Virus record (IMG/VR): IMGVR_UViG_3300011116_000303 | Coordinates: 1-21,171 of that record | Length of the DNA stretch: 21,171 nucleotides | From: a virus | Reading direction: 5' to 3' (one strand) | Shown: one piece after another, positions 7,366 through 12,064 of the stretch | How the letters are laid out: the number at the start of each line of letters is the position of its first letter | How positions within the stretch are numbered: position 1 is the first letter of the stretch | The notes under the pieces: model-generated | Told to the model about the DNA's origin: nothing | Databases searched by the model: none | Seen by the model: the letters and a program-made list of their open reading frames with translations, nothing else | Position numbers and translations under genes: made by a program

Positions 7366-8567
7366 AATACGTTTCCGTATGCTCAGGAATCGAGGCTGCC
7401 AGCATGGCTTGGGAGCCTTTTGGCTGGGAGCCGATTGCATTTTCAGAAATCGAACCATTCCCGGCGGCGGTGCTGAAGCACCATTGGCCGATGGTTCCAA
7501 ACTTAGGAGACATGACAAAACATGAACAATGGACAATACCAAGCGGATCAGTTGACCTTCTGGTCGGAGGCACGCCATGCCAATCCTTCTCAGTCGCAGG
7601 ACTTAGGCAAGGACTTAAAGACCCAAGGGGAAACCTCATGCTTACCTATCTTGCAATCGCTGAACGTTTCAAACCTCGATGGCTTGTCTGGGAAAATGTC
7701 CCCGGTGTCCTGTCGTCTAACGGAGGAAAAGATTTTGGTTCCTTCCTCGGAGCGTTGGGGGAGTTGGGGTATGAGTGGGCGTACCGAGTGCTGGACGCTC
7801 AATGGTTCGGAGTGGCCCAAAGACGCAGACGTGTGTTTGTTGTCGCACATCTTGGAGAAGGGAACCTTGCCGCAAAGGTTTTATTTGAGTCCGAAAGCCT
7901 GCTCCGGGATACTCCGCCGAGCAGAGAAACGAGGAAAGGAATTGCCTCCAATGTTGCGCCAAGCCTTACAGCTAGTAACGACCCAAGCCGAAGCCCCCAA
8001 TCAAGCGAAGTAACTCAGCAAGTTAATCCGGTGCTGGAGGCCATTAACTCTGGAAAACTTACCGAGCAATCTGTTTGCCCTACGCTAAAGGCAAACACGA
8101 AGGCTGGTGATACTGAAGTTAAGGTTGTCCTCTACGAAAACCACCCCAACGACAGCCGAGTCACTGGTCCACACAAAGTCGCGCCGAGTTGCGTGTCGAG
8201 GTTCGGGACGGGCGGCGGGAATGTGCCGTTGGTGCAAGAGGCAGTAGCCGTGGATTGTTACAACAAAACAATCAACGAGAAGTCGCAAGCCATCTCATCG
8301 TCAGCATCCGACATTAATCACACTGGGGGTGTAATCAATCCAGCAGATCGTATGGCCGTCCGCAGACTCACTCCCAAAGAATGCGAGCGGCTTCAAGGAT
8401 TTCCAGACGATCACACGCTAATCCCTTGGCGCAACAAACCAGCGGATCAATGTCCGGACGGGCCAAGGTACAAGGCTTTGGGAAACTCGATGGCCGTGCC
8501 GTGCATGGCTTGGATAGGGAAAAGGATTGACGCAATAGAACGCAACAATAGAAAGGACGGCCAATGA
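7362..8567 (+). CDS. C5-cytosine DNA methyltransferase (Dcm family)
   Basis: This has 401 residues from ATG 7362, in an ATGA overlap. The ordered motifs are: I, SVCSGIEAASMAW (SAM binding, residues 5-17); IV, GGTPCQSFS with catalytic Cys73; VI, ENVPG at 111; VIII, QRRRRVFVV at 153; IX, RRLTPKECERLQGFP near 334; X, ALGNSM near 372. It transfers a methyl group from S-adenosylmethionine to C5 of cytosine. Residues about 165-330 hold a long, Ser/Asn-rich target-recognition region (NVAPSLTASND, YENHPNDSRVTG, SRFGTGGGNVPL) typical of phage Dcm enzymes. No restriction partner is visible, so it probably protects phage DNA from host restriction. A second reading frame is embedded in it. It is ATGA-coupled to a glycosyltransferase downstream. 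Confidence 0.95.
   Translation: MKYVSVCSGIEAASMAWEPFGWEPIAFSEIEPFPAAVLKHHWPMVPNLGDMTKHEQWTIPSGSVDLLVGGTPCQSFSVAGLRQGLKDPRGNLMLTYLAIAERFKPRWLVWENVPGVLSSNGGKDFGSFLGALGELGYEWAYRVLDAQWFGVAQRRRRVFVVAHLGEGNLAAKVLFESESLLRDTPPSRETRKGIASNVAPSLTASNDPSRSPQSSEVTQQVNPVLEAINSGKLTEQSVCPTLKANTKAGDTEVKVVLYENHPNDSRVTGPHKVAPSCVSRFGTGGGNVPLVQEAVAVDCYNKTINEKSQAISSSASDINHTGGVINPADRMAVRRLTPKECERLQGFPDDHTLIPWRNKPADQCPDGPRYKALGNSMAVPCMAWIGKRIDAIERNNRKDGQ
7522..8013 (+). CDS. Overlapping gene inside the methyltransferase gene (163 aa)
   Basis: The frame is +1 relative to the methyltransferase and entirely within it. It opens MNNGQYQADQLTFWSEARHA and runs through GLSGKMSPVSC, SERWGSWGMSGRTECWTLNG and SEWPKDADVCLLSHILEKG to a striking end, QRFYLSPKACSGILRRAEK, then RGKELPPMLRQAL (residues about 118-149). 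From memory this C-terminal motif (LPQR(F/Y)YLSxKACxGILRRAxxRGKxLPxxLxxAL) occurs in many database proteins called hypothetical, many of them beside or over phage cytosine methyltransferases. AGGAG lies 12 bases before the ATG. The composition is protein-like, not random. The alternative is that conserved motif VIII onward merely forces this frame. Function is unknown. Confidence 0.6.
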   Translation: MNNGQYQADQLTFWSEARHANPSQSQDLGKDLKTQGETSCLPILQSLNVSNLDGLSGKMSPVSCRLTEEKILVPSSERWGSWGMSGRTECWTLNGSEWPKDADVCLLSHILEKGTLPQRFYLSPKACSGILRRAEKRGKELPPMLRQALQLVTTQAEAPNQAK

Positions 8568-9688
8568 AACTATGGACCAATAATACCAACCAAATCCACA
8601 AGGTGGACGACAATATGCTGCACGTCCGCAATACCTACGTCCTGCCAGACGAGCTTACCGGACCAACCTGGGACGATTCGATCCCTTGCCCGCACAAGAT
8701 CAAGCCTTATTACAAAGGCCGCGCAACTGGCGGAGCCACAGCGGTCTACCGCGCCGGAGCAATCGGGGATGCGGTCATAGCAACGGCCTTCGTACATTAC
8801 TTGGTTCAAGAGTCTGGTGGTGTGGTGGATGTTTACGCACCTGCCAGGAACCTGCCTCTCTACGCTGGGCTGGGAGCAAAGCTGTGGCCGCTACCAGCAT
8901 CACTGGAGGCTTGGGACAGCTACGATGCTCACCTTCCCACGGATGATTTGTTCAGCGGTCAGGTTGGCAACACCAAGCTAGGCACAGGTCCGGGCAACTG
9001 TTACCAGCGGATCTACGAATGGATGGGGGTTTGGGACGAAAAGACCATGGCCAAGTATTGCCGACCCTATCTTCATCTAGTTGAACCAGACCACAACGAG
9101 CTAAAGGAACTAGGCAAGTGGCCACTGCCAATCCCGTACTTCGCCTACCATGTCAGCAGTTCCGGGCCCACCCGCACCTACCCACCCAAGATGGGGCAGG
9201 ACGCTGTGCTAGCCTTACTCGAAGCCCACCCACACCATCATGCGGTCATTATCGGGTTGGACAACTCCAACAACTTCAAGGTCGACCATCCCAGGGTGAT
9301 CGACCTGTTCAACACTACAAAGCAGATCCGTTCACTGTTCCCGATTATAGCCAACGCAGACTTCGTTGTGGCACCGGATAGTTCGGTCAACCACATTGCG
9401 GCGGGGTTGGACACGGCTTGCGTGTCGCTGTGGGGGAGTTACGACCCTGCTGATCGCATGACGTACTACCCAAAGAACGTGTCGGTGTTCAAACCAGACA
9501 CCTGCCCACACGCGCCGTGCCGTCCACATGCGGGTCTACCGCAGGCGAAGTGTAAGGATGCGAGCAATAAGACTAAGGGAACGCAATACTTTTGCAACGC
9601 TCTCCGAAACATAACAGCGGAGGATATTGTGGCTGCATCGCATAAGGCGAGGGAGTTGGAAGATAAACTACATGAGGAGAAGAAATGA
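8564..9688 (+). CDS. GT9-type (heptosyltransferase-like) glycosyltransferase
   Basis: This 374-residue protein is coupled to the methyltransferase by an ATGA overlap. It has the GT-B layout of the ADP-heptose:LPS heptosyltransferase family. GAIGDAVIATAFVHYL (residues 65-80) is the N-domain glycine loop. The C-domain has the donor site NADFVVAPDSSVNHIAAGLD with Asp272, His277 and the following CVSLWGSYDP. A cysteine-rich stretch follows (CPHAPCRPHAGLPQAKC), perhaps a zinc or structural site, and the tail is a charged helix. It is expected to be cytoplasmic. The acceptor is unknown. Lipopolysaccharide remodelling is the family's usual job, but fusion of its expression to a DNA methyltransferase leaves DNA modification open. 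The shorter start options lack support. Confidence 0.85.
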   Translation: MKLWTNNTNQIHKVDDNMLHVRNTYVLPDELTGPTWDDSIPCPHKIKPYYKGRATGGATAVYRAGAIGDAVIATAFVHYLVQESGGVVDVYAPARNLPLYAGLGAKLWPLPASLEAWDSYDAHLPTDDLFSGQVGNTKLGTGPGNCYQRIYEWMGVWDEKTMAKYCRPYLHLVEPDHNELKELGKWPLPIPYFAYHVSSSGPTRTYPPKMGQDAVLALLEAHPHHHAVIIGLDNSNNFKVDHPRVIDLFNTTKQIRSLFPIIANADFVVAPDSSVNHIAAGLDTACVSLWGSYDPADRMTYYPKNVSVFKPDTCPHAPCRPHAGLPQAKCKDASNKTKGTQYFCNALRNITAEDIVAASHKARELEDKLHEEKK

Positions 9689-9852
9689 AAAGAATATTAT
9701 CAGAAACATTTAACATTATGTTTGTAATATGTGTGCTTATCTTGCCGATATTGTATACATTGAAAATAATCACATGTGCGGCAGGAATAACCAAGATTGA
9801 TTGGTTTGACGCAATATTTTTAATTGCATACACATTCTTATTGAGAGATTAA
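9685..9852 (+). CDS. Two-span micro membrane protein, 55 aa
   Basis: ATG 9685 overlaps the glycosyltransferase stop and follows GAGGAGAAGAA, a strong Shine-Dalgarno. The product starts MKRILSETFNI and has two hydrophobic spans, MFVICVLILPILYTLKIITC and a later DAIFLIAYTFLL ending RD. It is distinctly AT-richer than its neighbours and ends the long operon before the RNA leader. Function is unknown. Late addition by transfer is possible. Confidence 0.62.
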   Translation: MKRILSETFNIMFVICVLILPILYTLKIITCAAGITKIDWFDAIFLIAYTFLLRD

Positions 9853-9860
9853 ATCCAACC

Positions 9861-9937
9861 AATCCAGCGCATGGTACGCAGGGAGATCCTGCGGCGGGAT
9901 TCCCTAGTGTGTTCTCCCCTTGAAACAAAGCTGGGTT
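9861..9937 (+). ncRNA. Candidate three-way-junction RNA, copy 1
   Basis: A 77-base element can fold into a three-way junction. The closing stem pairs AATCCAGC (9861-9868) with GCTGGGTT (9930-9937), eight pairs with one G-U. The J1/2 strand is GCATGGTA. Hairpin P2 is CGCAGG-GAGAT-CCTGCG (9877-9893). A variable third arm occupies 9894-9920. The last junction strand is TGAAACAAA (9921-9929). Copy 2 has the same junction strands and the same GAGAT loop but different stem sequences, with pairing preserved. It has no match to a riboswitch or ribozyme class I know. It sits in the leader of the primase gene. Confidence 0.62.
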
Positions 9938-9954
9938 TTAATTAACATGAACCA

Positions 9955-10021
9955 ATGCCCCGAATGGTACGCAAGGAGATCTTGCGGCTGTGTGTCTACC
10001 ACATCTGAAACAAAGGGGCAT
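9955..10021 (+). ncRNA. Candidate three-way-junction RNA, copy 2
   Basis: This is a second, 67-base copy, 17 bases after copy 1. The closing stem is seven perfect pairs, ATGCCCC (9955-9961) with GGGGCAT (10015-10021). J1/2 is GAATGGTA. P2 is CGCAAG-GAGAT-CTTGCG (9970-9986). A third arm GTGTG-TCTAC-CACAT follows (about 9990-10004), then TGAAACAAA (10006-10014). Three closing-stem pairs and one P2 pair differ from copy 1 by double compensatory changes, which is strong evidence for RNA structure. A 34-codon frame from ATG 9946 crosses it, but it lacks a Shine-Dalgarno. Confidence 0.65.
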
Positions 10022-10043
10022 GACTTGCAACCAGAAAAAGTAG

Positions 10044-10052
10044 TGATATAGA
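10044..10052 (+). promoter_or_regulatory. Possible extended -10 promoter for the primase gene
   Basis: TGATATAGA reads as an extended -10 (TG-N-TATAGA, four of six matches to TATAAT), 24 bases before the primase ATG and just after RNA copy 2. No good -35 is visible. If active it would give a transcript that lacks the tandem RNA, so the leader RNA would then need an upstream promoter. Confidence 0.3.
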
Positions 10053-10075
10053 AACAAACAGAAAGGTTGGTAGAC

Positions 10076-12064
10076 ATGAATAAAGATATGTTGGCGGCTC
10101 TAGCAAGCCGTCTTGGTGGAAAAGCCGTATTCCTTGCGGTTCCCAAGGGCGAGAAGGGTCCGGTCAAGCCAGGCTGGCAAAAGATAACCTACGAGGAAAC
10201 CCAGAGGCCAGAGTACATTGAAAGGCTAATTACTGGAAATATAGGCGTATTGCTTGGTAAGGCATCGTCTGGTCTTTGCACGATAGACATAGACAGCGAC
10301 ACAAGGGCGGAGGAGTTTGCCGAGCTAAATCCAAAGCTTGCCAAGACGTTCCAGACCAAGGGTGCGCGGGGTAGGAACTTCTGGGTAGTGATAGATGGAG
10401 AGTTTCCGCCACTTCACAAAATTAAGGCTGGTCAGGAGGATTGGGGTGAATGGAGAAGTGATGGCGGTCAGACAATCGTATATGGAACCCATCCAAGCGG
10501 AGTGGCGTATAGTTATCCCAACCAGGGATCAAGTGTTGTCGGGATAAAGTTTGATGAAATTGTATGGCCTGAAGACATTCAAAAGCCATGGGTTGAGGAA
10601 GAGGCAACCGAGGAATCCAAAGACCTTGAGAAAAGATTTGGCAGTCCGTTCAAGATTCGGGTCAACCAGAAGACCGGCGATGAGATTGTCGTTGGCATCA
10701 ATGAACCATTCTGGGCGGCAAAGTATTTTACGGAGAACAGGATTCTATGGGAACCGTCAGAAAAGATGTTTTACATGTATGACCAAGAAACTGGATTGTG
10801 GGGCCACAAAACAGAGGACACAATTAAACAGGAGATAAGTTCGAATATTCTGGAATATGGCCGCGATGCCCACCAGCCTTCCACGCAAGATATGCGCAGC
10901 GAGAGGTTGCTGACATCCATCACAAGGCAGTTGCGCGGGATGGTTGAGATTCGTGATGCCTTCGTAAACAAGGGAACACCTGGTGTGCATTGTGCAAATT
11001 CCTACATAACCTTTGATGATCTCGGGAACATCCATGAGCATGAGTTTAGTCCGGACTTTTATTCAAGGAACCAATCGCCAATAGAGTTTCAAGGGATTGA
11101 CCTTGAGCCAAGTAGGTTCATTAACGAGCTTCTGATACCAACCCTTCCAAATAAGGACGATATTGCGATATTTCAGAAGTATGGCGGCATGTGCCTATTT
11201 GGACGAAACATCATACAAAGATTCATGGTCATGTATGGTCAGGCCGGAGGTGGCAAGTCAACGCTGGTCAATATTGTCCTAAACATAGTCGGAAAGCACA
11301 ACATGGCTGGGCTTCGAACCGGACATCTAAACAATCAGTTTGAGTTATACAGGTTCAGAGCCAAGACACTTCTGTCTGGCACAGACGTTCCAGGCAACTT
11401 CCTATCCACGCCAGGAGCCAAGGTTATCAAGGGATTGACCGGAGGTGACACCATAGAGGCGGAGGGCAAGGGGTTGAATGATGGAGTTGTGTTGCAGGGA
11501 ATATTCAACATCCTTATAACAGCCAATGAGCGGTTGAAGGTGGCACTTGAGGGTGATGTGGACGCTTGGAACAGGCGGTTGCTCTTGCTTGAGTTTAACC
11601 AACCACCACCAGCCAAGAAGATTGAGGGTTTTGCCGACAAGCTTGTGACTGAAGAGGGGTCGGCAATCCTTGCGTGGTTCCTGCGCGGGTTTAGGGATCT
11701 GTTAGAAGATGTAAGAGAAACTGGTGATATTAGATTGTCTAATACACAGATTGAGAAGACCAAGAACCTACTGGCAGAATCCGATAGCGTCACTCATTTC
11801 ATCAAGGATAAGGTTCACAAGGTTCAAGGAAGCAGCGTAACCAATGATGAGTTCATTACCTTATATGGCGAATACTGCGCAGAACGCGGGTGGGTGGCAA
11901 TGGAGCAGGCCAGGCTTCAAAAGGTAATCAATTCAAAGATGCTGGAGTTAAGGCAGGTAACCCAAAGCCATTCGGTTGAGGGCGGAAAGGGTAGGAATAA
12001 GCGCGGGTTTAGAAACATCCATATAGATGGACAGGAGCAGCACCAATACCATGAGGCACTATAA
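10076..12064 (+). CDS. Primase-polymerase / SF3 helicase replication protein
   Basis: This gives 662 residues from ATG 10076. GAAAGG lies nine bases upstream, and a TTG at 10067 is possible. The N-terminal 200 residues form an archaeo-eukaryotic primase (prim-pol) domain: KGPVKPGW, then NIGVLLGKASSGLCTIDIDSD with the catalytic Asp71-x-Asp73 pair, then GRNFWVVIDG and the later SDGGQTIVYGTHP. The C-terminal half is a D5/SF3 helicase: Walker A GQAGGGKST (388-396), motif B around Asp437 in LLSGTDVPG, and motif C ILITANER with Asn484. This domain fusion primes and unwinds phage DNA at an origin, usually as a hexamer. The C-terminus (ESDSVTHFIKDK onward) is a D5-type wing. It is followed, one base overlapping, by a zinc-ribbon protein. 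Confidence 0.93.
   Translation: MNKDMLAALASRLGGKAVFLAVPKGEKGPVKPGWQKITYEETQRPEYIERLITGNIGVLLGKASSGLCTIDIDSDTRAEEFAELNPKLAKTFQTKGARGRNFWVVIDGEFPPLHKIKAGQEDWGEWRSDGGQTIVYGTHPSGVAYSYPNQGSSVVGIKFDEIVWPEDIQKPWVEEEATEESKDLEKRFGSPFKIRVNQKTGDEIVVGINEPFWAAKYFTENRILWEPSEKMFYMYDQETGLWGHKTEDTIKQEISSNILEYGRDAHQPSTQDMRSERLLTSITRQLRGMVEIRDAFVNKGTPGVHCANSYITFDDLGNIHEHEFSPDFYSRNQSPIEFQGIDLEPSRFINELLIPTLPNKDDIAIFQKYGGMCLFGRNIIQRFMVMYGQAGGGKSTLVNIVLNIVGKHNMAGLRTGHLNNQFELYRFRAKTLLSGTDVPGNFLSTPGAKVIKGLTGGDTIEAEGKGLNDGVVLQGIFNILITANERLKVALEGDVDAWNRRLLLLEFNQPPPAKKIEGFADKLVTEEGSAILAWFLRGFRDLLEDVRETGDIRLSNTQIEKTKNLLAESDSVTHFIKDKVHKVQGSSVTNDEFITLYGEYCAERGWVAMEQARLQKVINSKMLELRQVTQSHSVEGGKGRNKRGFRNIHIDGQEQHQYHEAL

Follow-up and report, generated by a model that had tools for sequence, protein, structure and literature searches.

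The region at positions 9861 to 10021 of an uncultured phage record in IMG/VR (IMGVR_UViG_3300011116_000303; the 21,171 bases analysed are referred to here as the window) carries two similar stretches that were read, in an earlier note on this DNA, as tandem copies of a three-way-junction RNA. The window encodes a C5 methylase, a GT9-like glycosyltransferase, a Prim-Pol/DUF5906 primase, a terminase and an SU10-type portal (Pfam, PHROG), and both stretches sit between the end of a 55-aa open frame (9852) and the start of the primase gene (10076) (Table 1). The stop codon of the 55-aa frame (9850-9852) ends 8 nt ahead of P1 of the first copy (copy A). The primase gene lies 3' of the second copy (copy B) and has its own Shine-Dalgarno (SD)-like sequence, AAAGG, at 10062-10066. 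No terminator was found near either copy within the window. A sigma-70-like site (TTGAAA-17-TAACAT; 9920-9948) overlaps the J31 strand of copy A and is within chance expectation.

Table 1. Positions in the window of the two three-way-junction RNA copies, their parts and the neighbouring open frames
Feature	Position	Strand	Basis
Glycosyltransferase family 9-like gene	8564..9688	+	Pfam PF01075, 31.1 bits
55-aa open frame	9685..9852	+	Direct reading
Copy A (copy 1) of three-way-junction RNA	9861..9937	+	Direct reading; covariance-model score 89.1 bits
Copy A P1	9861-9868/9930-9937
Copy A J12 ATGGTA	9871-9876
Copy A P2	9877-9882/9888-9893
Copy A P2 loop GAGAT	9883-9887
Copy A J23 GC	9894-9895
Copy A P3	9896-9899/9915-9918
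Copy A J31 TGAAACAAA	9921-9929
Short open frame, 34 codons (MNQCPEWYARRSCGC...VVI)	9947..10051	+	Direct reading
Copy B (copy 2) of three-way-junction RNA	9955..10021	+	Direct reading; 75.6 bits
Copy B P1	9955-9961/10015-10021
Copy B ATGGTA	9964-9969
Copy B P2	9970-9975/9981-9986
Copy B P2 loop	9976-9980
Copy B GC	9987-9988
Copy B P3	9989-9992/10000-10003
Copy B TGAAACAAA	10006-10014
Bifunctional primase-polymerase/helicase (Prim-Pol, DUF5906)	10076..12064	+	Pfam PF09250, PF19263; PHROG DNA primase

Direct reading of the sequence bore out all coordinates of the two copies, which share their joining strands and the GAGAT loop and are separated by a linker of 17 nt. The four double compensations that had been described between them are present, three in P1 (G-C to C-G, A-T to C-G and C-G to G-C) and one in P2 (G-C to A-T), and a repeat search recovered the pair of copies with 79% identity across 48 nt. 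The minimum-energy fold of copy B is the proposed junction (z -2.85). That of copy A keeps P1 and replaces P2 and P3 with an alternative hairpin (z -1.59), and the stability of the region as a whole is unremarkable (z -0.15). Folding energy alone is thus not decisive, and proof of the fold is comparative.

The A-type copies, in the window (9900-9913) and at other loci, retain the word YCCUC..AGUGUGU in the P3 loop despite drifting stems. A bistable switch in which P2 pairs with this conserved loop was considered and rejected, as it was no better than shuffles, and the conservation of the word was not explained by pairing with P2.

IMG/VR was searched with a core pattern in which 22 bases are fixed, giving 116 matching stretches. 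A covariance model built from 45 sequences was run on the fetched loci and detected about 200 copies on about 140 uncultured phage contigs, many of them close relatives, and also recovered weaker first members of tandem pairs, which had escaped the pattern. Such a search had been proposed in the earlier note, and the stem changes seen among the homologues retain pairing. In a 94-copy alignment, which was fitted to the covariance model and therefore leans towards the structure, double compensatory changes occur in 19 of 19 stem pairs, standard pairs fill 89.5% of pair cells compared with 64.6% in shuffles, and 423 cells are changed on both sides compared with 137 in shuffles. The covariation score of the same alignment was 0.657, against 0.199 for shuffles and at most 0.163 for slid controls, and P2 was 99.6% paired. 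An independent MAFFT alignment of 45 sequences gave the same picture. Homologues were also reached via a neighbouring helicase gene, without use of the RNA pattern, and carry a divergent copy upstream with a longer, covarying P1.

Chance, already thought a poor explanation for the two copies, is ruled out by the covariation and by the control patterns given below. G-U pairs fill 79 cells and A-C pairs 27, indicating that the + strand folds, a bias that is also expected of single-stranded DNA and is by itself no proof of RNA. The element is a new, conserved family of structured RNA, carried by phages and folded from the + strand around an invariant core, with all of its helices covarying.

The consensus reads P1 – G(x)AUGGUA – P2 (6 bp) – GAGAN – P2' – GC – P3 – (YU)UGAAACA(AA) – P1'. 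P1 varies freely, being G+C-rich and 9 bp long in the L173 copy, while the core stays invariant, with the core residues U, GG, GAGA, C, U, A, C and A never or almost never varying. U17-A85 and G18-C84 (alignment columns) are able to lengthen P1, U20/A81 is replaced by A/U in two copies and, by our reading, apparently by G/C in locus L210, and the non-canonical A21-G39 pair at the P2 base can be G-A or A-U instead. GAGA was invariant among the copies found, several of the collection patterns having required it, and the base ahead of it is A instead of G in about one-fifth of distinct copies. The suggestion that an SD-like GGAG is sequestered in the loop was therefore not upheld, since only the GAGA part is invariant. 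Patterns demanding a non-G third loop base or a 7-bp P2 gave only chance matches, all of which failed the covariance model, and the P2 length and the loop are therefore fixed; strongly divergent members such as L210 may be missed by pattern-based sampling.

No Rfam 15 family matched the window at the gathering threshold, with only chance matches at E values up to 10, and 12 further loci compared with Rfam 15 yielded tRNA only, in agreement with the earlier note, which knew of no described class with this core. Among GTDB genomes there were 17 relaxed matches, whose model scores were all below significance (best 15.5 bits), and a search of 369 genomes of one bacterial class gave no match. In cultured phages, the motif region had no blastn match and the divergent copies had only weak, chance-like matches, while four annotated phages scanned in full contained no model match. 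Plasmids gave chance matches only. No description was found in the open literature, in a search lying outside a 2017 catalogue of 224 motifs, which are reportedly largely in Rfam. The element is a new RNA family within a known broad kind, the phage structured RNA.

The genetic context of the element was examined across the lineages. Among 30 records searched whole, a single copy was found in 25 and a tandem pair in four, and the remaining record has a weak second copy far from the first. The GT9-like gene seen in the window is the usual upstream neighbour in the main lineage (gene cluster c0), where the order is GT9-like gene – A – (B) – primase/helicase. In another lineage the element follows an SSB-like gene and precedes small genes and DNA polymerase A, and in a third it lies between an SSB-like gene and an SF2 helicase gene. 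Further replication contexts include a methylase and a helicase, replication protein O, and a position 3' of a VapE-like primase. Selfish or accessory genes (GIY-YIG/T5orf172, HNH, PAPS reductase-like) lie directly behind the element in L020, L026, L029 and L001, and in L020 and L026 they are located between copies A and B.

Other copies are found in quite different surroundings. One context is a lysozyme region, one copy is located directly between tRNA-Pro and tRNA-Met in a phage array of 18 tRNAs (L014:3020-3259), and one immediately precedes a gene for the RNA ligase RtcB (L146:7871-9144). U-tracts or terminators lie behind some copies: those in L179 and L141 are intact and precede terminator-like sequence, and a degenerate second copy (G008 36296-36369, in L224) follows the C-terminus of an SSB-like protein (DEEIPF stop) and has an intrinsic terminator behind it. 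Coding sequence contains the element in frame in three lineages, namely inside a glycosyltransferase-like gene (L005:1043-1125 group), in an 832-aa frame between its GT2 and GT4 parts (L160:11367-11443) and near a gene start (L177:3571-3643), and all three use the same frame, xGTQG[DE]PAA...ETx. The idea of a leader controlling replication genes was thus borne out in that replication genes are common neighbours but not in its specificity, as copies also occur before unrelated genes, between tRNAs, beside RtcB, before terminators and inside coding sequence.

Frequent location in the replication module, at about one site per genome, would suit a single-stranded DNA structure or replication origin. 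However, this explanation is highly unlikely, as the element was at a GC-skew turning point in none of the seven records tested, which rules against an origin, copies also lie in tRNA arrays and late-gene regions, and the relation to start codons is consistent.

Wherever a lineage has a gene close behind the element, the two share a strand. The downstream genes belong to about a dozen unrelated families and start about 10-33 nt past the element, and the stop codons of upstream genes are often 10 nt or less from P1. In the main lineage, at the loci where copy A stands alone, no SD sequence precedes any of the 23 genes that begin behind it (mean -1.9 kcal/mol, none below -4), compared with a mean of -5.1 kcal/mol and 55% below -4 for 157 other genes on the same contigs. 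As the genes behind the element in the main lineage are of unrelated families (AAA/primase-like, radical SAM, PAPS reductase, GIY-YIG and others) and all lack an SD, it is the slot, not the gene, that is SD-less in this lineage.

In the other lineages, a start codon at short spacing without an SD is found mostly, though not always. Examples are the SF2 helicase and C5 methylase genes, the short gene of the SSB-PolA lineage, and the genes behind the element in L170 and L173. Baseline SD use is lower in the helicase, methylase, L170, L173 and SSB lineages, and the absence of an SD is less telling in some of the other lineages because overall SD use is low there (7% in the c17 lineage). A downstream SD-like sequence is present in L050 and a weaker one in L146, and the gene behind copy B has its own SD. 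In L207-L209, the helicase gene lacks an SD though the element is not adjacent.

In tandem loci, 37 of 37 A copies are followed by an ATG 15-22 nt past UGAAACA, and in the window this ATG is 17 nt past TGAAACAAA of copy A and opens a frame that traverses copy B. Neither the frame nor the peptide behind the conserved ATG is conserved, as would be expected of a start site linked to the element. Copy B is traversed in different frames at different loci, in keeping with the earlier view that the two copies are hard to explain by coding. A coding repeat was rejected for these copies, as there is no single conserved frame and in-frame coding occurs only in the three other lineages described above.

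A tentative reading of these arrangements, falling short of an even chance, is that the element acts in cis between cistrons, at gene boundaries, to set up translation of the gene that follows, and that this would be its main job. The + strand of the phage mRNA would fold into the element, with P1 closing a compact junction and bringing together the stop codon of one gene and the start codon of the next, between which the junction often fits. The rigid junction would then set up or regulate initiation at an SD-less start about 10-33 nt behind it, with the ribosome either recruited directly or via a bound factor, or handed on after just terminating. For the window this would mean that the ATG at 9947 is acted on by copy A, and that the leader frame preceding the primase start (10076) is modulated by copy B. 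We infer that the element may itself cause initiation, through contact either with the ribosome or with a bound factor. It is possible, but doubtful, that the element is a stand-in for the SD sequence, with the three-way junction recruiting or handing ribosomes to a nearby start as a small bacterial internal-ribosome-entry or reinitiation structure that phages have placed between unrelated genes.

A translation role is a poor fit for the copies that lack a following start (L014, L179, L141 and the weak copy in G008) and for the in-frame copies within coding sequence in three lineages, and riboswitch or operator, small-RNA, and ribozyme or processing models therefore stay alive. The first of these, in which binding of a small molecule, or of a protein from phage or host, to the junction and GAGA hairpin would repress or activate the gene behind, appears somewhat unlikely. 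Translational operators of T4 replication proteins provide a precedent, and invariant single-stranded junction residues amid freely varying stems, the fixed 6-bp P2 and GAGA loop, the tandem copies and the frequent SSB, primase, helicase, DNA polymerase and replication protein O neighbours would all suit such an aptamer or operator. However, the main lineage has no SD to sequester, the window lacks a terminator near the copies, and the downstream genes are very diverse, with some copies located within coding sequence or between tRNAs.

The copy between two tRNA genes in the 18-tRNA array points in another direction, to a gene for a trans-acting small RNA or a sponge, with an RNA of ~75 nt cut from longer transcripts so that gene position would hardly be relevant. 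Terminator-like sequence behind copies in other genomes, the presence of one copy or one tandem pair in most genomes and the adjoining RtcB RNA ligase gene in L146 are consistent with this. A small RNA is nevertheless an unlikely explanation, as it leaves the SD-less starts at short spacing, the conserved ATG past A copies and the constant orientation with the downstream gene unexplained.

The RtcB neighbour, though a single case, would also suit a self-cleaving ribozyme or a processing site, with cleavage of the phage transcript at the borders between genes yielding mRNAs with short leaders, and the shape and size of the three-way junction are typical of small ribozymes. The boundary positions and the short AU-rich leaders behind P1 agree with such a cut. 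This model is nonetheless improbable, given that no Rfam ribozyme family matches and that, in conserved coding sequence, cleavage at the in-frame copies would destroy the mRNA.

Small three-way-junction riboswitches and ribozymes in Rfam, for example the glnA/glutamine RNA (cyanophages) and the hammerhead, are also found in phages and in tandem. The element resembles these classes in its size, junction, conserved joining strands and varying stems, but has different core strands, and Rfam 15 models gave no match in the window and only tRNA genes in the other loci tested. HK022 put RNA and lambda boxB are phage RNA elements that act on transcription, put consisting of two simple hairpins and boxB of one. 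The element is likewise a short phage RNA whose hairpin loop is fixed and which lies close to early or replication genes; neither put nor boxB is known to have this junction core. If the element does act in cis on translation, it would be comparable to the calicivirus TURBS and to T4 coupled genes, in which a structure lies between a stop and a downstream start without ordinary initiation signals, although the fold of the element is far more rigid and conserved.

The motifs reported by Weinberg et al. 2010 (PMC2864571), which include manA and wcaG in cyanophages, are of a similar kind, namely environmental phage RNAs found by covariation. A search of the paper's text turned up neither a primase-associated nor a freshwater motif, and the element differs from manA and wcaG in that the Rfam models do not match it.

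The element adds a well-supported RNA family to uncultured environmental phages, in which few structured RNAs are known. Its core is as strict as those of riboswitches and ribozymes, and there is therefore a specific interaction to find. If the element does replace the SD sequence, it would represent a natural structured initiation element in bacteria, and such a role would be new.
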